Source: Halosolutus halophilus (lineage in GTDB: Archaea > Halobacteriota > Halobacteria > Halobacteriales > Natrialbaceae). Taken from it: DNA of 64,000 bases. Position 1 is the stretch's first letter, and the number at the start of each line of letters is the position of its first letter. The stretch spans positions 4,526,001 through 4,590,000 of the forward strand of contig NZ_CP094974.1 in the NCBI RefSeq assembly GCF_022869805.1. The letters run 5' to 3'. Shown here piece after piece: positions 11,511 through 18,963 of this stretch. Made by a program: the position numbers and the translations under genes. A model generated the notes under the pieces. The model was not told where the DNA came from. It saw nothing but the letters and a program-made list of their open reading frames with translations, and searched no databases.

Positions 11511-12656
11511 ATGGATGGGAAGGGGCGCTGGGCCCTGCTTTGCGTGCTCGTGGTGGTCGGGTGTTCGCTCGCGCTGCTACCGATCGCGTCGACCGTCGGT
11601 GGGGTCGACGCGGGCCAAAGTGAGCCGGCGCTCCAGGAAGGGGCCGACGAGAGCGCACAGCTCGAGGACGCGGACGAGATTCACATCGACGTCCTCCTCC
11701 ACGATAACGGCTCGGCGACGTTCACCGTCGACTACCGGTACGTGATCGACGAGGAGAACACGACAACCGAGGAGTGGGACGAGATCCAGAGCGACGTCGA
11801 GGAGAACGCGAACGCGTACGCTGCGACCGAGGAAGAACGGTGGAACCAGACCGTCGCGGACGGTGCGAACCGGACCGATCGGAACATGAACATCTCGAAC
11901 GTTTCCGTCAGCACGGAGCACGAGGCCGCACCGCAGGAGCTAGGACACGTCACGTTCACGTTCGAGTGGTCGAAGTTCGCCCACGTCGAACTGAACCGGA
12001 TCGAGGCCGGTGACGCGATATACGGGTTTACCATTCCCGACGGTACCACGTTGCAGTTCCGCTGGCCGGACGCGTACGCTCTCAACGAGGAACCGGACCC
12101 CACACCAGACGATTCGGACGACAATTCGGTCTACTGGAACGGCGAGGGGACCGAGTTCGCGTCCGAACAGCCCCGCATCGTGCTGATCGAGAACGGGACC
12201 GACGATCCGAACACCACCGGCGACGAACCGGGGACGACCGACGGGGATCCCAATGCCACCGGCGACGAGCCGTCGATGCCGTGGCTGGCGGTGGTGGTGG
12301 CCCTCCTCCTGCTCGCGTCAGTCGGCGCTGCGGGCTGGTGGATCAGGGGCCAGCAGGTTCGCACGCGGGACCCGGCCAGTACGCCGTCGCCGCCGGTCGC
12401 CGACGGAGCAGCCGAACCCGACGGTCCGGACGGCCCGCCGCCCGAACTGCTCAGCAACGAGGAACGGGTCCTGCTGTTGCTCGAGGAACGGGGCGGCCGG
12501 ATCAAACAGCAGGAAGTCGTCTCGGAACTGGACTGGACCGAGGCCAAGACGAGCCAGGTCGTCAGCGGCCTGCGGGAAGACGACGAAATCGAGGTCTTCC
12601 GGATCGGCCGGGAGAACGTCCTCTCGTTGCCGACCGAGGACGAGAACCCCTCCTGA
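11511..12656 (+). CDS. Membrane-anchored winged-helix protein with exported sensor-like domain
   Basis: A 381-residue protein. An N-terminal hydrophobic signal/anchor (residues 7-27) is followed by an acidic, mostly beta exported domain (about 50-225), a Thr/Asp/Pro linker, a transmembrane helix (WLAVVVALLLLASVGAAGWW, about 262-281) and a cytoplasmic MarR-like winged helix at the C-terminus. That winged helix contains ERVLLLLEERGGRIKQQEVV and WTEAKTSQVVSGLREDDEI. The layout suggests an envelope state read directly by a DNA-binding domain, but no ligand is known. It ends about 100 bases before the candidate arginine leader; whether it regulates the arg genes is untested. A TATA-like CTATTTAGG lies about 27 bases ahead of the ATG. 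Confidence 0.75.
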   Translation: MDGKGRWALLCVLVVVGCSLALLPIASTVGGVDAGQSEPALQEGADESAQLEDADEIHIDVLLHDNGSATFTVDYRYVIDEENTTTEEWDEIQSDVEENANAYAATEEERWNQTVADGANRTDRNMNISNVSVSTEHEAAPQELGHVTFTFEWSKFAHVELNRIEAGDAIYGFTIPDGTTLQFRWPDAYALNEEPDPTPDDSDDNSVYWNGEGTEFASEQPRIVLIENGTDDPNTTGDEPGTTDGDPNATGDEPSMPWLAVVVALLLLASVGAAGWWIRGQQVRTRDPASTPSPPVADGAAEPDGPDGPPPELLSNEERVLLLLEERGGRIKQQEVVSELDWTEAKTSQVVSGLREDDEIEVFRIGRENVLSLPTEDENPS

Positions 12657-12720
12657 GACGGTCCTCGACTCGGAGGACGTCCGTTCGCCCGACGCGTGTA
12701 ACATTTGCCACCCCGGTAGG

Positions 12721-12729
12721 TTTTAATAG
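12721..12729 (+). promoter_or_regulatory. TATA box ahead of candidate arg leader
   Basis: TTTTAATAG is centred 28 bases before the ATG at 12753. The spacing predicts a transcript starting at that ATG, about 240 bases ahead of argG, in addition to the argG-proximal promoter near 12956. Confidence 0.5.
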
Positions 12730-12752
12730 TGCCCGGGGCTTTGGGGCTACCA

Positions 12753-12845
12753 ATGAGGCGCCCCGACGGCAGTCCGGTCATCGTTCTCGATACCGGCGGG
12801 GCTGTTTCGCCGCGGCGGCCACGACGACCGCGACCGGGCCTTTGA
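12753..12845 (+). CDS. Candidate arginine-rich leader peptide (30 aa)
   Basis: A short frame starting at the ATG placed by the upstream TATA box. It begins MRRPDGSPVIVLDTGGAVSP and ends with an RRPRRPR cluster followed by PGL. Seven of 30 codons are Arg and five of those fall in the seven codons at 21-27. A hairpin with stem CGGGC/GCCCG (12835-12850) overlaps the stop codon. Placement in front of argG suggests a translation-coupled sensor of arginine supply, like bacterial leader peptides. That is inference: GC-rich noncoding DNA easily yields Arg and Pro codons, and attenuation by leader peptides is not established in haloarchaea. Confidence 0.3.
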   Translation: MRRPDGSPVIVLDTGGAVSPRRPRRPRPGL

Positions 12846-12850
12846 GCCCG
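12835..12850 (+). promoter_or_regulatory. Hairpin over the leader stop codon
   Basis: The arms CGGGC (12835-12839) and GCCCG (12846-12850) flank the loop CTTTGA, which contains most of the TGA stop of the 30-codon leader frame. A ribosome paused on the Arg codons just upstream would abut or open it. No T-run follows, so it is not a standard terminator. Confidence 0.35.
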
Positions 12851-12903
12851 TACTATACTCTACCCCACGTCCTCGGTTCGTTCCAACGTTCCAGCGATCG
12901 CAG

Positions 12904-12964
12904 AATTTTCGGTTAGCAGCCGCTCTAACTATAATTTTCGGAACTTAAACCAATGAGCTTAAGT
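12904..12964 (+). promoter_or_regulatory. argG promoter region with dyad and direct repeats
   Basis: Two copies of AATTTTCGG (12904-12912 and 12933-12941) flank an inverted repeat GTTAG-N8-CTAAC (12912-12916 and 12925-12929). Behind them come two TATA-like sites, ACTTAAAC near 12943 and GCTTAAGTCC near 12956. The second lies about 30 bases before the argG ATG and suits a near-leaderless start. The dyad sits where a haloarchaeal repressor or activator would bind. Confidence 0.5.
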
Positions 12965-12992
12965 CCCTCCTGCCGTTTCACTCGAATACGAC

Positions 12993-14243
12993 ATGACACG
13001 CGTTGCACTCGCGTTCTCGGGCGGACTGGACACGACCGTCTGTGTCCCGCTGCTCGAGGAGGAATACGGATACGACGACGTTATCGGCGTCACGGTCGAC
13101 GTCGGACAGCCGGCCTCGGAGTTCGAGGAGGCCGAAGAAACGGCCGAGGCACTCGGCCTCGAACACTACGTCGTCGACGCGCGAGCGGAATTTGCCGACC
13201 TCTGTCTCGAGAGCGTTCGCGCGAACGCGACCTACCAGGGCTACCCGCTCGGCACGGCGCTGGCCCGTCCCGTGATCGCCGAGGCGATCCTCGAGGTCGC
13301 AGAGGAACAGGACTGTACCGGCATCGCCCACGGCTGTACGGGGAAGGGCAACGACCAGCTTCGGTTCGAGGCCGTCTGGCGTGACTCGGACCTCGAAGTG
13401 ATCGCCCCCGTGCGCGAACTTGGCCTCACCCGCGAGTGGGAACAGGAGTACGCCGACGAGAAGGACCTCCCCGTCGAGGGTGGCAGCGGCGGCGACTGGT
13501 CGATCGACACCAACCTCTGGAGTCGCTCGGTCGAGGGGGACGAACTCGAGGACCCGAACTACGTCCCGCCCGAGGAAATCTACGACTGGACCCAGGCGCC
13601 CACCGGCGACAGCCAGGAGATCGAGATCACCTTCGAGGAGGGATACCCCGTCGCCGTCGACGGCGTGGAGTACGAGCCCGTCGACCTCGTCGAGCATCTC
13701 AACGGCGTGGCCGGGGCCTACGGCGTCGGTCGCACGGACACGATGGAAGACCGCATGCTCGGCCTGAAGGTCCGCGAGAACTACGAGCACCCCGCCGCGA
13801 CGACGCTGCTGAACGCCCACGAGGCGCTCGAGGGGCTCGTGCTCACGCAGGAGGAACGCGAGTTCAAACAGCAGATCGACCAGCAGTGGGCCAAGAAGGG
13901 CTACGAGGGCCTGATCGACGCGCCCCTCGTGAACGCACTCGAGGGCTTCATCGACGAGACCCAGCAGCGGGTCACCGGGACGGTGACGATCCGCTTCGAG
14001 GGTGGCCGGGCGCGTCCGGTCGCCCGCGACAGCGAGTACGCCGCCTACTCGGCCGAACACGCCTCCTTCGACACGGAGACGGTCGGCAAGATCGAGCAGG
14101 AAGACGCCACCGGCGTCGCAAAGTACCACGGCTTCCAGCGCCGTCTCGCGAACGAATCGATCGCCGCGAACGAGGTGGACGAGGACGACGAGGAGGTCGA
14201 ACTCGCTACCGACGGCGGTGACGCGGTCGACGACGACGAATAA
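12993..14243 (+). CDS. argG: Argininosuccinate synthase
   Basis: A 416-residue enzyme that condenses citrulline and aspartate with ATP, the seventh step of arginine synthesis. The N-terminal ATP-binding P-loop AFSGGLDTT (residues 7-15) and the conserved segments GCTGKGNDQLRFE and EGGSGGDWSIDTNLW are present. The C-terminus carries an acidic haloarchaeal tail. argH follows two bases after its stop, so the two genes are certainly cotranscribed. Regulation is suggested by the dyad upstream and the candidate leader. Confidence 0.96.
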   Translation: MTRVALAFSGGLDTTVCVPLLEEEYGYDDVIGVTVDVGQPASEFEEAEETAEALGLEHYVVDARAEFADLCLESVRANATYQGYPLGTALARPVIAEAILEVAEEQDCTGIAHGCTGKGNDQLRFEAVWRDSDLEVIAPVRELGLTREWEQEYADEKDLPVEGGSGGDWSIDTNLWSRSVEGDELEDPNYVPPEEIYDWTQAPTGDSQEIEITFEEGYPVAVDGVEYEPVDLVEHLNGVAGAYGVGRTDTMEDRMLGLKVRENYEHPAATTLLNAHEALEGLVLTQEEREFKQQIDQQWAKKGYEGLIDAPLVNALEGFIDETQQRVTGTVTIRFEGGRARPVARDSEYAAYSAEHASFDTETVGKIEQEDATGVAKYHGFQRRLANESIAANEVDEDDEEVELATDGGDAVDDDE

Positions 14244-14245
14244 CG

Positions 14246-15757
14246 ATGACCGAGGAGAGCGCTCACGACGGCGATCGCGTGCCAGCAGCGGACGAGACGG
14301 CCCTGCGCACTGATGGCGGCGACGAGGGCGTCGTCCGTCGGGACCGCTTCAGCGGCGGCCCCGCCCGGAGCTTCCTCTCCTCGCTCGCGGCCGATCGGCG
14401 AATCTTCGAGGCCGACCTCGAGGTCGATCGAGCCCACACCGTCATGCTCGCCGAACAGGACGTCGTCGAGGACGACGCCGCGGGCGCGATCCTGACCGCG
14501 CTGGACGCCATCGAGGTTGACGGCCACGACGCCCTGCCCGACGGCGAGGACGTCCACGAGGCGATCGAGACGGCAGTCATCGAGCGCATCGGCCCCGACG
14601 GGGGGAAGATGCACACCGCGCGCTCGCGCAACGACGAGGTCGCGGCCTGCATCCGCTACCGCCTTCGCGAGGACGTCCTCGCTGCGATCGAGACGACGAT
14701 CGCGTTGCGCGAGTCCCTGATCGGGGTGGCCGACGACCACCGGGAGACGATCATGCCCGGCTACACGCACCTCCAGCCCGCCCAGCCGATCACGGTCGCC
14801 CACTGGGCGCTCTCCTACGAGGGAGCCGTCCGTCGCGACGCGGCGCGGCTGCTCGAGGCGTACGATCGGATCAACGAGTCGCCCCTCGGCGGCGCCGCGT
14901 TCGCGGGGACGACGTTCGAGATCGATCGCGAGCGCACTGCCGAACTCCTCGGCTTCGATGGCGTGGTAGCGAACTCGATGGACGCCGCCGCGAGCCGGGA
15001 CTTCCTGCTCGAGACCGTCCAGGCGCTGTCGACGCACGCGACGACGCTCTCGGGGCTGGCGGAGGACGTGATCGTCTTCGTGAACCGCGGCTTCGTCGAC
15101 CTCGCGGACGACTACTCGTCGACGTCGTCGATCATGCCCCAGAAGAAGAATCCCGACACGCTGGAACTGGTGCGTGCGGTCGCGGGCGACGCGGCCGGGG
15201 GCGTCCAGGGGCTGACGACGACGCTCAAGGGACTGCCCCGCGCGTACAACCGCGACCTCCAGCGGGCGACGACCCACGCCTGGGAGACCGTCGACGCGGT
15301 GACGGAGGCCAGCGAGGTCGCTGCGGGTGCAGTGGCGACGGCCGACTGGAACGAGGAGTCCCTCGCCGCCGAAGCCGGCGCGGGGTTCTCGACGGCGACC
15401 GGCGTCGCCGATCTGCTGGCCGCGAACGGACTGCCGTTCCGGACGGCACACGAGGTGGTCGCAGTGGCTGCAGAGAACGGCGCCGACTACGACGCGATCG
15501 AGGCCGCCGCCGAGGAGATTCTCGGCGAGCCACTCGAGAACTACGTCGACCCCGCTGCCGTCGCGGACGCGCTCGATCCCGCCGAAAGCGTCGCGAGTCG
15601 GGACTCGCAGGGCGGCCCCGCTCCCGGGGCCGTTGCCGACCAGATCGAGGCGGCGCGCGATGCGCTCGCGGCCGACGAGGAGACGCTCGCGGTGACGAGC
15701 GAGGCACTCGAGACGGCCCACGAGGCGCTTCGCGAGGAGGTGAACGGGTATGTGTGA
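14246..15757 (+). CDS. argH: Argininosuccinate lyase
   Basis: A 503-residue member of the fumarase/aspartase superfamily that splits argininosuccinate into arginine and fumarate. The family signature SSIMPQKKNPD is present near residue 293, with THLQPAQPITVAHW and HTARSRNDEV further upstream. It starts after an acidic 30-residue extension common in haloarchaea. It is coupled to argG with a two-base gap. The next block, lysW-argF, begins 207 bases downstream behind its own promoter. Confidence 0.96.
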   Translation: MTEESAHDGDRVPAADETALRTDGGDEGVVRRDRFSGGPARSFLSSLAADRRIFEADLEVDRAHTVMLAEQDVVEDDAAGAILTALDAIEVDGHDALPDGEDVHEAIETAVIERIGPDGGKMHTARSRNDEVAACIRYRLREDVLAAIETTIALRESLIGVADDHRETIMPGYTHLQPAQPITVAHWALSYEGAVRRDAARLLEAYDRINESPLGGAAFAGTTFEIDRERTAELLGFDGVVANSMDAAASRDFLLETVQALSTHATTLSGLAEDVIVFVNRGFVDLADDYSSTSSIMPQKKNPDTLELVRAVAGDAAGGVQGLTTTLKGLPRAYNRDLQRATTHAWETVDAVTEASEVAAGAVATADWNEESLAAEAGAGFSTATGVADLLAANGLPFRTAHEVVAVAAENGADYDAIEAAAEEILGEPLENYVDPAAVADALDPAESVASRDSQGGPAPGAVADQIEAARDALAADEETLAVTSEALETAHEALREEVNGYV

Positions 15758-15964: not shown

Positions 15965-16129
15965 ATGACCGAATGCGTCGAGTGTGGGGCAGAAGTGTCC
16001 CTGCACGACGATCTGGAAGTGGGAGAGATCGTTGACTGTACGACCTGCGGTGCCGAACTGGAAGTCGTCGACACTGAGCCGCCAGTCCTCGAGCGAGCCC
16101 CGGAGCTCGAAGAGGACTGGGGTGAGTGA
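15965..16129 (+). CDS. lysW: LysW amino-group carrier protein
   Basis: A 54-residue acidic zinc-ribbon protein starting MTECVECGAEVSLHDDLEVG. Two CxxC pairs (CVEC and CTTC) bind zinc and the C-terminus is EDWGE, whose final glutamate is the known attachment point for the substrate amino group. In haloarchaea it carries glutamate through ornithine synthesis and may also serve lysine synthesis. It overlaps the next gene by 4 bases. The short length is normal for the family. Confidence 0.95.
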   Translation: MTECVECGAEVSLHDDLEVGEIVDCTTCGAELEVVDTEPPVLERAPELEEDWGE

Positions 16130-17010
16130 CCTTGCAAGTAGGAATCCTCTACTCCCGGATCCGCAAGGACGAGAAGCTCCTGCTCAACGAACTTCGCGAG
16201 CGCGACCACGAGGTCGTGAAGATCGACGTCCGCAAACAGGAGTTCGACGTCGGCGAGACCCCCGAGGAGTTCGCGAACCTCGATCTCGTCGTCGATCGCT
16301 GTCTCGCCACGAGTCGGAGCCTGTACGCCACGAAATTCTTCGAGGCGTACGGCATCCCCGTGGTCAACAGCCACGAGACGGCCGAGATCTGTGCGGACAA
16401 GGTGAAGAACAGCCTCGCACTCGAGCAGGCGGGCGTGCCCACGCCCGCGACGAAAGTCGCGTTCACGAAAGAGACCGCGATGGAGGCGATCGAGGACTTC
16501 GGCTACCCGTGCGTGCTCAAACCCGTCGTCGGATCGTGGGGCCGCCTGATGGCCAAGATCGATTCGCCGGACGCCGCCGAGGCGATCTTGGAGCACAAGG
16601 CCACCCTCGGCCACTACGAGCACAAGGTGTTCTACGTCCAGGAGTTCGTCGAGAAGCCCGGCCGCGACATCCGCGTGCTCGCGACCGACGGCGAACCGAT
16701 CGCCGCGATGGTCCGCTCGTCGGACCACTGGATCACGAACGCCGCCAAGGGTGCCGAAACCGAGGTGTTCGAACTCGACGACGAGGCGAAAGAACTGGTC
16801 CAGAAGGCCAGCGACGCCGTCGGCGGTGGTCTCCTGGGCGTCGACCTCATGGAGACGGGTGATTCGTACACCGTCCACGAGGTCAACCACACGGTCGAGT
16901 TCAAGGCGCTCGACGGCGCGGTCGACACCGACGTCGCCGGCACCGTCGTCGACTGGCTCGAGGAGAAGGCCGCCGACGCGGCGGACGAACAGCTGGAGGT
17001 GACGGCCTGA
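16126..17010 (+). CDS. argX: Glutamate-LysW ligase ArgX (LysX family)
   Basis: A 294-residue ATP-grasp ligase of the RimK superfamily that joins the alpha-amino group of glutamate (or aminoadipate) to the C-terminal Glu of LysW. Visible are the ATP-grasp elements YPCVLKPVVGSWGRLMAK and VQEFVEKPGRDIRVLA, and the C-terminal metal/substrate segment HEVNHTVEFK. It overlaps lysW by four bases (GTG start at 16126; a TTG six bases further on is the alternative). Whether it is specific for glutamate or aminoadipate, or takes both, cannot be decided safely by eye; the ornithine/citrulline genes downstream favour glutamate. Confidence 0.93.
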   Translation: MTLQVGILYSRIRKDEKLLLNELRERDHEVVKIDVRKQEFDVGETPEEFANLDLVVDRCLATSRSLYATKFFEAYGIPVVNSHETAEICADKVKNSLALEQAGVPTPATKVAFTKETAMEAIEDFGYPCVLKPVVGSWGRLMAKIDSPDAAEAILEHKATLGHYEHKVFYVQEFVEKPGRDIRVLATDGEPIAAMVRSSDHWITNAAKGAETEVFELDDEAKELVQKASDAVGGGLLGVDLMETGDSYTVHEVNHTVEFKALDGAVDTDVAGTVVDWLEEKAADAADEQLEVTA

Positions 17011-18086
17011 TGGCGGTCGGAACCGACGTCAGCGCCGACGAGAACGCCGAGACCGTCACCGCGACCGTCATCGGCGGCTCGGGCTTCACGGGCGGCGAAC
17101 TGCTTCGTCTGCTTGCAGGCCACCCGAACTTCGAACTGGTCGAGGTGACCAGCCGATCGAAGGCCGGCAAGAGCGTCGGCTCCGTCCACCCGCCGCTGCG
17201 GGGGACGGACCTGCGGTTTACCGAACCCGAGGACCTGGCGAGCGTCGACGTCCTGTTCGCGGCGACGCCACACGGCGTCTCGATGGGACGGGTCGACGAC
17301 TTTTTCGAGATTGCCGATACGGTCGTGGACCTCTCGGCGGACTTCCGCCTCGACAGCGAGGCCCAGTACGACGAGTGGTACGACGGCCACGACGCGCCCG
17401 AGTACCTCGAAACGGCCGAGTACGCGCTCCCCGAGATCAACCGCGACAACCTCGAGGGTGCCGAACTGATCGCCGGCGGCGGCTGTAACGCCACCGCGAC
17501 GATCCTCGGGCTCTACCCGCTGTTCGAGCACGATCTCCTGGAGGGCGGTGAGCAGGTCGTCGTCGACGTCAAGGTCGGCTCCTCCGAAGGCGGCGCCGGC
17601 GGCGGCGAGGCCTCGAGCCACCCGGAGCGATCGGGCGTGGTCCGTCCCTACGCGCCGACGGGCCACCGTCACGAGGCCGAGATCGAGCAGTTCCTCGGGA
17701 CGAGCGTCGCGTTCACGTGTCACGCCGTGGATATGGTTCGCGGCGCCAGCGCGACGAGTCACGTCTTCCCATCGGGGCCGGTCTCGAAGGGCGATCTCTG
17801 GGGGGCCTACCGCGACTGCTACGAGGACGAGCCGTTCGTCCGGATGGCCGCCGGCGGCTCCGGCGTCTACCGCTACCCCGAACCCAAGGCGGTCGCGGGG
17901 ACCAACCTCGCCGAGGTCGGCTTCGAACTCGACCCCTCGAACAAGCGGATCGTCGTCTTCTCGGCGATCGACAACATGATGAAGGGATCGGCGGGCCAGG
18001 CGGTCCACGCGGCCAACGTCGCGCTCGGTCTCGAGGAGACGGCCGGACTCGAATTCACGGGGTTACACCCCGTGGGGGCGCCCTGA
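17010..18086 (+). CDS. argC: [LysW]-glutamyl-phosphate reductase (ArgC/LysY)
   Basis: A 358-residue NADPH-dependent reductase that turns the LysW-bound gamma-glutamyl phosphate into the semialdehyde. It shows the Rossmann start TVIGGSGFTGGELLRLL, the catalytic cysteine segment IAGGGCNATATILGLYPL, and the conserved GSSEGGAGGGEASSHPER region. Its ATG overlaps the argX stop by one base, indicating translational coupling. The length is normal. Confidence 0.94.
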   Translation: MAVGTDVSADENAETVTATVIGGSGFTGGELLRLLAGHPNFELVEVTSRSKAGKSVGSVHPPLRGTDLRFTEPEDLASVDVLFAATPHGVSMGRVDDFFEIADTVVDLSADFRLDSEAQYDEWYDGHDAPEYLETAEYALPEINRDNLEGAELIAGGGCNATATILGLYPLFEHDLLEGGEQVVVDVKVGSSEGGAGGGEASSHPERSGVVRPYAPTGHRHEAEIEQFLGTSVAFTCHAVDMVRGASATSHVFPSGPVSKGDLWGAYRDCYEDEPFVRMAAGGSGVYRYPEPKAVAGTNLAEVGFELDPSNKRIVVFSAIDNMMKGSAGQAVHAANVALGLEETAGLEFTGLHPVGAP

Positions 18087-18087
18087 G

Positions 18088-18963
18088 ATGACGGTCGTAG
18101 TCAAGATCGGCGGCGCTCGCGCCGTCGATCCGGAGGGCGCACTCGCGGACGTCGCCTCGCTGGTCGAAGACGGTGAAGACGTCGTGCTCACCCACGGCGG
18201 CTCGACCGCCGTCGACGAGACCCTCGACGAACTCGGCGAGGACCCCACGTACGTCGAGACGCCCGGCGGCGTCGTCGGGCGCTTTACCGACGAACGCACC
18301 ATGGACGTCTTCAAGATGGTGATGCCGGGCAAGCTCAACACCGATCTTGTGGAGAGCCTGCACAACGAGGGTGTGAACGCTGTCGGCCTCTCCGGCACCG
18401 ACGGCAAACTGCTGGAGGGCAAGCGCAAGTCGGCCGTCCGCGTCGAGGAGGACGGCAAGAAGAAGATCAAGCGCGGCGACCACTCGGGGACGATCGAGTC
18501 GGTCAACGCGGACCTGCTCGAGACGACCCTCGCGGGCGGTTACACGCCCGTCGTCTCCGTTCCGGTGCTCGGGAGGGAGAAGGACGGCGGCTACACCGCC
18601 GTCAACGCCGACGCCGATCGGGCCGCCGCCGCAATCGCCGGCGCGCTGGCAGCCGATCTGGTCGTCCTCACCGACGTCTCGGGAATCTACGAGGACCCCG
18701 ACGACGAGTCCACGAAGATCGATTCGGCGTCGACCCCCGAGGAGTTCGCGGCCGTCGAGGACGCCGCGGAAGGGTTCATGACGAAGAAGGTGATGGCCGC
18801 CGAGGAGGCCCTCGAGGGCGGCGCGGCCTCGGTGATCGTCGCCTCGGCGAACGCCGACGCCCCGATCACGAGCGCGCTCGCAGGCGAGGGCACGACGATC
18901 GAACCCGGCGCGGTCGCCGACGACGCGGACGACCGCGCGGAAACGGAGGTTCCAGAGCAATGA
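18088..18963 (+). CDS. argB: [LysW]-glutamate kinase (ArgB/LysZ)
   Basis: A 291-residue amino-acid kinase that phosphorylates the side-chain carboxylate of LysW-bound glutamate. The amino-acid kinase fold is recognised from VVKIGGARAVDPEG at the N-terminus, VVLTHGGSTAVDETL, and the nucleotide-binding region LTDVSGIYEDPDDES. It lies one base after the argC stop and overlaps argD by four bases. Confidence 0.94.
   Translation: MTVVVKIGGARAVDPEGALADVASLVEDGEDVVLTHGGSTAVDETLDELGEDPTYVETPGGVVGRFTDERTMDVFKMVMPGKLNTDLVESLHNEGVNAVGLSGTDGKLLEGKRKSAVRVEEDGKKKIKRGDHSGTIESVNADLLETTLAGGYTPVVSVPVLGREKDGGYTAVNADADRAAAAIAGALAADLVVLTDVSGIYEDPDDESTKIDSASTPEEFAAVEDAAEGFMTKKVMAAEEALEGGAASVIVASANADAPITSALAGEGTTIEPGAVADDADDRAETEVPEQ

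Follow-up and report, generated by a model that had tools for sequence, protein, structure and literature searches.

Is the short, arginine-rich reading frame ahead of argG in the haloarchaeon Halosolutus halophilus a working leader peptide, of the kind that senses amino-acid supply in bacteria, or only what GC-rich DNA happens to spell? The question arises from one stretch of 64,000 nucleotides, here called the window (positions 4526001-4590000 of a 5.06 Mb single-contig genome), in which an earlier note had pointed to a 30-codon frame with its own TATA box, a cluster of Arg codons and a hairpin across its stop, about 150 bases before argG. These elements are where they were said to be. The frame opens at ATG 12753, encodes MRRPDGSPVIVLDTGGAVSPRRPRRPRPGL and ends with TGA at 12843-12845, five of its codons 21-27 (21, 22, 24, 25 and 27) specifying Arg; the TATA box, TTTTAATAG, occupies 12721-12729, its core TTTAATA starting 31 nt before the ATG; the hairpin comprises CGGGC (12835-12839), the loop CTTTGA (12840-12845) and GCCCG (12846-12850), the leader stop codon lying in the loop and abutting the 3' arm; and the argG ATG, at 12993, is 147 nt past that stop. 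Downstream of argG come argH, an argX/LysX-like gene, argC and argB (Table 1), which places the leader at the front of a cluster of arginine genes; more ORFs in the same direction extend beyond argB as far as 22182. The closest named relatives of this ArgG include those of Natrinema, Natronorubrum, Natronococcus, Natrialba and Haloterrigena species.

Table 1. Features of the argG leader locus and the arginine genes (positions in the window), and ilvB of the same genome (position in the genome).
Feature	Position	Strand	Basis or remark
TATA box (TTTAATA) of candidate promoter P1	12722-12728	+	31 nt 5' of leader ATG
Leader ORF, 30 codons + TGA, probably leaderless	12753-12845	+	sequence; frame conservation
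SL1, stem-loop within leader ORF, 5' of Arg run	12755-12808	+	fold; covariation
Arg run, codons 21-27, CGG CGG CCA CGA CGA CCG CGA	12813-12833	+	sequence
SL2, hairpin CGGGC-CTTTGA-GCCCG with stop at loop/3'-arm junction	12835-12850	+	fold; compensatory forms
Conserved stretch CGGTTCGTT, 3' of SL2	12874-12882	+	conservation profile
Conserved imperfect palindrome GTTAGC...GCTCTAAC	12912-12929	+	conservation profile
P2, probable second promoter, TATA-like CTTAAG (family consensus TTTAAG)	12958-12963	+	35 nt 5' of argG ATG
argG, first gene of the arginine operon	12993-14243	+	NCBIfam NF010392, TIGR00032 above cut-off
argH	14246-15757	+	NCBIfam
argX/LysX-like gene	16126-17010	+	NCBIfam
argC	17010-18086	+	NCBIfam
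argB	18088-18963	+	NCBIfam
ilvB (window's genome)	3076741-3078396	-	

If the frame matters, its Arg codons and hairpin should be conserved in related species while other bases change, as the earlier note had remarked in proposing an alignment; comparison of about 200 genomes revealed just this pattern. In the 450 nt upstream of argG of 124 genomes of the window's family, all 124 have an ATG-started ORF with an Arg run ahead of a GC hairpin, the frame from ATG to Arg run being kept throughout, and in 117 the stop lies within the hairpin. The other seven (G095, G096, G100, G101, G106, G108 and G118) retain the hairpin and the Arg run, at 5-8 Arg per ten codons, with a frame difference that removes the stop in SL2 and lets the ORF read through to nearer argG. 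A few further genomes outside this set also have no stop in SL2, the frame reading on, and the position of the stop is therefore not essential everywhere. Programmed frameshifting at SL2, which we had considered, is not needed: the read-through genomes have ATG and Arg run in one frame. These read-through lineages offer a natural experiment on what the position of the stop contributes.

The comparison was extended to 40 genomes of eight other families of the order, and then to 40 more from the families labelled f2, f8 and f10 (f1 being that of the window). An ATG-started ORF with an Arg run is present in 37 of the first 40, and an Arg-bearing leader ORF in all of the further 40, with a hairpin at its stop in 36. 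Two leaders, those of G126 and G213, appear by eye to start with GTG, the former having about 13 Arg; G243 is the sole genome of the first 40 to have no clear leader. The last 14 leader codons include 3-12 Arg in nearly all genomes. Among the genomes read of outgroups from the same phylum, outside the order, the leader is absent. It is the remainder of the leader that changes: its N-terminal part differs widely among genera, and the peptide is variable outside the Arg run and the stem-forming bases. At the level of DNA, matches to the leader region (E <= 0.001) were obtained in 100 of 125 family genomes, a number of them short and away from argG.

The earlier note had itself cautioned that Arg and Pro codons are what GC-rich DNA yields. 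Codon choice answers this. In argG itself (67 named species, 1207 Arg codons) Arg is encoded by CGC at 72%, CGT at 17%, CGG at 7% and CGA at 2.6%, whereas over the final 12 codons of 151 leaders (772 Arg codons) CGA accounts for 60.6%, CGG for 31.6% and CGC for 1.4%; towards the N-terminus these leaders have CGA at 7 of 160 Arg codons. GC-rich DNA would be expected to supply CGC, yet the run has CGA and CGG, with A mainly in third position, and since A makes up just 10.5% of the bases in the run region its prevalence at that position is not an effect of composition. Codon -4 is Arg in 117 of 117 leaders, its first two bases invariant and its third A or G. The Pro codons beside the hairpin follow the hairpin sequence. 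The bias of the run is what is predicted of selection for slow or limiting Arg codons, to which selection for an unfolded run may possibly be added.

Two RNA structures accompany the frame. SL2 is present in nearly every leader, its arms differing by lineage and yet complementary (GGGCC/GGCCC, GGCCC/GGGCC, GGGGTC/GACCCC, GGGGCT/AGCCCC), and in most the stop sits at the junction of loop and 3' arm. Covariation was assayed in five groups by comparing the pairing of each arm with its own partner to that with permuted partners from other genomes; the resulting z values are to be taken as guides, related genomes not being independent, and the null controls share the same relatedness. By this measure the arms of SL1 favour their own partner in each of the five groups (z -4.6 to -10.5), and control pairings were null. 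In f2 (z -4.0) and f8 (z -3.5) the Arg run itself covaries with an anti-Arg segment further along, usually 45-70 nt beyond the stop, with which it pairs; examples are CGACGACGACG with CGTCGTCGTCG, GTGCCGCGACG with CGTCGCGGCAC, and AGCGTGTCG with CGACACGCT. In the window's family this pairing is weak (f1, z -2.1), the stretch CGGTTCGTT sitting where other families have the anti-Arg segment, and in f10 and the remaining families the permutation test found none. The pairing, which had at first seemed general, is therefore not universal: comparison with shuffles upholds it in some of the P2-less genomes only, and the larger genome set gave significance in f2 and f8 only.

The pairings and sites of a classical attenuator did not appear. 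A 2:3 antiterminator, formed by the 3' arm of SL1 and the 5' arm of SL2, was null on permutation in f1, f2, f8 and f10, and the complement GGGTCCG/CGGGCCT, tried in the same role, gave no permutation signal in any group. There is no site resembling an intrinsic terminator in 12600-13050, SL2 being followed by ACTATACTC, which has no T-run; archaeal termination need not use sites composed of a hairpin and a U-tract. A sigma-70 scan at the leader locus returned nothing.

A candidate promoter of the archaeal type is a regular companion of the leader. In 141 of 151 leaders a box within two changes of TTTAATA begins 30-35 nt ahead of the leader ATG, mostly at -31 or -32; with one mismatch at most, TTTAATA is found in 113 of the 151, against 4.8% of shuffles. 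Some 31 nt between TATA box and ATG is what leaderless starts in haloarchaea usually show. Given this geometry, and since 72% of protein-coding transcripts are leaderless in Haloferax volcanii (PMC4983044), the leader ORF is probably leaderless from P1. A probable second promoter of the window's family, P2, lies just before argG, and 88 of 117 family genomes have its box at -35. A similar box stands 31-36 nt before argG in the majority of the f3, f5, f6 and f9 genomes sampled and in part of f10. In f2, f4, f8 and the rest of f10 no TATA box was found near argG, which leaves the leader promoter as the sole candidate for argG there. Where P2 is present, as in the window's genome, control by the leader would extend only to those transcripts that come from P1.

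Arginine is not the only pathway concerned. Upstream of ilvB a leader of the same build, its stop lying within a GC hairpin or beside one, is present in 12 of the 12 genomes read, with C-termini that include LALIRIVGA, SLIIVGAA, APIIVGV, LALVLVGAL and GIIVGAP. In the last nine codons of these leaders (11 genomes) ATT encodes 17 of 19 Ile and GTA 13 of 16 Val; in the ilvB genes themselves ATT is used for 2.0% of Ile and GTA for 0.2% of Val. The codon run thus follows the pathway—Arg in the argG leader, Ile and Val in that of ilvB—and in both its codons are rare. SL1 is weaker in the ilvB leaders (z -2.2, n=11). In the window's genome the leader is MRFRASVSARTVDSSALALIRIVGA, with GGGGCG-TAA-GCGCCCC; the strict scan described below extends its frame to an ATG further upstream; we chose the shorter because a TATA-like TTATGT is situated 32 nt before that start. 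Scans of relatives for other pathways, which covered about 1.5-4 kb around the marker gene, found no leader before hisG, trpC, homoserine dehydrogenase or prephenate dehydratase, and the 4 kb before trpE gave a single match, isolated and not conserved. The trpS and pheS genes of Haloferax volcanii have uORFs of 23 and 26 codons in long 5'-UTRs (PMC4983044), which are candidate members of this class that would sense Trp and Phe.

End-product codons, the use of their rare synonyms, covarying RNA, a stop in a hairpin, a place at the head of the operon and recurrence in two pathways are best explained together by ribosome occupancy that reports the supply of aminoacyl-tRNA. We consider it probable, on the strength of these sequence comparisons, that the site is a translated, ribosome-sensing leader by which charging of Arg-tRNA would set expression of the arg operon. 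The initial reading of the frame as an arginine leader peptide, made from a single sequence, is thereby strengthened: Arg run and hairpin are conserved amid a variable peptide, and the run is written in CGA and CGG. Use of P1, translation of the ORF, stalling of the ribosome and a change in argG output are steps that we infer.

Other explanations of the site have to be set against this one. That GC-rich non-coding DNA merely resembles a leader peptide was suggested by the frequency of Arg and Pro in GC-rich frames, the caution already mentioned, and by the fold of the single leader, which stands at a z of merely -1.7 against shuffles. We scanned for the arrangement strictly, specifying a TATA box, an ATG at the right distance and an ORF of 12-50 codons with its stop in a GC hairpin. 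On both strands of the 64 kb window there was one match, the argG leader; in 784,100 bases of other, non-arg haloarchaeal loci there were eleven, of which ten are the ilvB leader (five genomes, two loci each) and one is unexplained. With a background rate near zero, conservation across the order and the choice of codons all opposed to it, an origin by chance is refuted, its likelihood being practically nil, and the element ahead of argG is confirmed as a real one that chance does not account for. The site might instead act in cis as a structured RNA, such as a ligand-binding leader, or be bound by a protein, with translation unneeded and the ORF incidental. This would accord with the covariation of both SL1 and SL2 and with conservation of the sequence between leader and argG; it is at odds with the in-frame Arg at codon -4, where the third base alone varies, with the unbroken frame in the window's family, with the rare-codon bias and with a TATA box fixed at leaderless distance from the ATG, and Rfam 15 gave no match at the gathering score (one sub-threshold, 12.3 bits against 35). 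We regard it as quite unlikely.

Two further possibilities give the peptide a function of its own. The frame might be an independent gene for a small Arg-rich protein, SL2 being its 3' end and argG being driven by P2; it does have its own TATA box, and P2 is close to argG in the window's family, but no peptide is conserved outside the Arg run, Pfam gave no match for it, the use of rare codons would be odd for an expressed protein gene, and the frame is tied to argG in all families and kept in f2, f4 and f8, which have no P2, so that we rate this very improbable. Alternatively, the Arg-rich nascent peptide might stall the ribosome from within the exit tunnel in response to free arginine, in the manner of the fungal arginine attenuator peptide. 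C-termini such as RPRRPRPGL could plausibly be slow or arresting, and the position of the stop codon is nearly constant; nevertheless nothing in the peptide beyond Arg is fixed, the number of Arg (3 to 12) and their spacing vary, the residues before the stop track the hairpin sequence (RPGL, RPGR, RRAF, RPAR), codon choice within Arg is biased, and the ilvB leader has Ile and Val instead. Such arrest is in our judgement unlikely.

How might a ribosome-sensing leader operate at this site? Transcription from P1 would start at or next to the ATG, and a ribosome beginning on the leaderless ORF would open SL1 and then meet the rare CGA and CGG codons. With charged Arg-tRNA in ample supply it would reach the stop inside SL2 and leave; the RNA behind the polymerase would then fold and be exposed to FttA/aCPSF1, or to premature ending of another kind, and expression of the operon would be low. 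With charged Arg-tRNA in short supply the ribosome would stay on the Arg run, holding it out of the anti-Arg helix in f2 and f8, and remain close behind the polymerase, preventing FttA/aCPSF1-dependent termination, so that more transcripts would reach argG. The termination factor and its possible exclusion by ribosome coupling have been reviewed (PMC8116511). This polarity, with ON corresponding to a ribosome stalled on the run and holding it out of the anti-Arg helix, is the one we favour; least certain are the role of SL2 and the step controlled, which could be the end of transcription, RNA decay or translation. Against the leader reading we counted the absence of argG from the uORF-bearing long 5'-UTRs of Haloferax volcanii under optimal growth (PMC4983044). 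On the same side we placed the null 2:3 pairing, the want of an intrinsic terminator, P2 together with the weak anti-Arg pairing in the window's family, and the loss of the SL2 stop from seven genomes of that family; in favour we counted that f2, f4 and f8 keep the leader, whose promoter is the only one seen there.

Amino-acid attenuators of bacteria are familiar from the trp, his, leu, ilv, thr and phe operons. The argG leader is like them in that a short ORF heads a biosynthetic operon and has a run of end-product codons, often rare, with hairpins around and after it; it is unlike them in its archaeal host and probable leaderless start, in having neither U-tract terminator nor 2:3 antiterminator signal, in the stop placed inside the second hairpin and in the second promoter seen in many lineages. 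The original claim that its architecture copies that of bacterial leader peptides holds, then, for the short ORF, the Arg run and the hairpins; as the 2:3 antiterminator and the U-tract terminator, two defining features of the bacterial class, were tested for and not found, we do not class the leader as a bacterial attenuator. The best reading is that it would work like a bacterial leader-peptide attenuator while differing in host domain, mode of start and hairpin layout. The fungal arginine attenuator peptide (the arg-2/CPA1 uORF) is conserved, and stalls ribosomes at its stop codon in high arginine; it too is a uORF before an arginine biosynthetic gene, whereas the argG leader conserves Arg codons only.

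The argG leader resembles orf34 of Salmonella speF, likewise a uORF some 30 codons long, in which rare Arg codons follow one another and a hairpin lies beside the stop (PMC6386406). In that system the position of the ribosome at the Arg codons or the stop decides the form of the RNA, and a hairpin just past the uORF stop, which forms on upstream ribosome pausing, favours expression (PMC6386406); SL2 could by this analogy be an ON rather than an OFF structure. The speF leader differs in controlling a polyamine gene, together with Rho, RNase G and ornithine (PMC6386406), and in its conserved DUF2618 peptide, the argG leader peptide being variable and without sequence relation to it; Pfam did not find the DUF2618 domain in the argG leader peptide. 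Within the haloarchaea, 16 uORFs are listed in long 5'-UTRs of Haloferax volcanii (PMC4983044); in the available part of that report these are like the argG leader in lying in haloarchaeal 5'-UTRs at lengths of 15-31 codons, some with a second TSS, and unlike it in that argG and ilvB are absent from the list and amino-acid sensing is not proposed.

A paper of 2021 states that transcription attenuation and antitermination are not known in archaea (PMC8448881), and no haloarchaeal amino-acid leader peptide was found in the literature searched, outside which lay preprints and most subscription papers. Our confidence is evenly balanced as to whether haloarchaea possess a general class of leaderless amino-acid leaders (Arg for argG, Ile and Val for ilvB, and perhaps more) that would control premature termination of transcription through ribosomes that occupy rare codons and are released at a hairpin-buried stop. 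If true, Archaea would have their first case of ribosome-mediated transcription attenuation, and two central haloarchaeal biosynthetic pathways may be set by tRNA charging and not by a repressor alone. Because the element is order-wide, is found before two different amino-acid operons and occurs in genetically workable organisms, control of archaeal transcription by the ribosome through coupling is directly testable.

Some features around the leader deserve mention in their own right. The gene 5' of it (11511-12656), which ends about 65 nt before P1, encodes a DUF7345/DUF7343 protein; in Natronorubrum the leader is also preceded by a C-terminus resembling that of this protein, and the gene could for this reason be a linked regulator. 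The palindrome GTTAGC...GCTCTAAC is possibly an operator for an argG regulator, or else an upstream element of P2. Other families with P2 have similar TAG...CTCT motifs, as seen by eye, at this position. Just 5' of the P1 TATA box, TGTAACATTTGCC (12698-12710), possibly a regulator site or an upstream promoter element, does not vary among the genus's three genomes, and TTTGCC is kept throughout the family.
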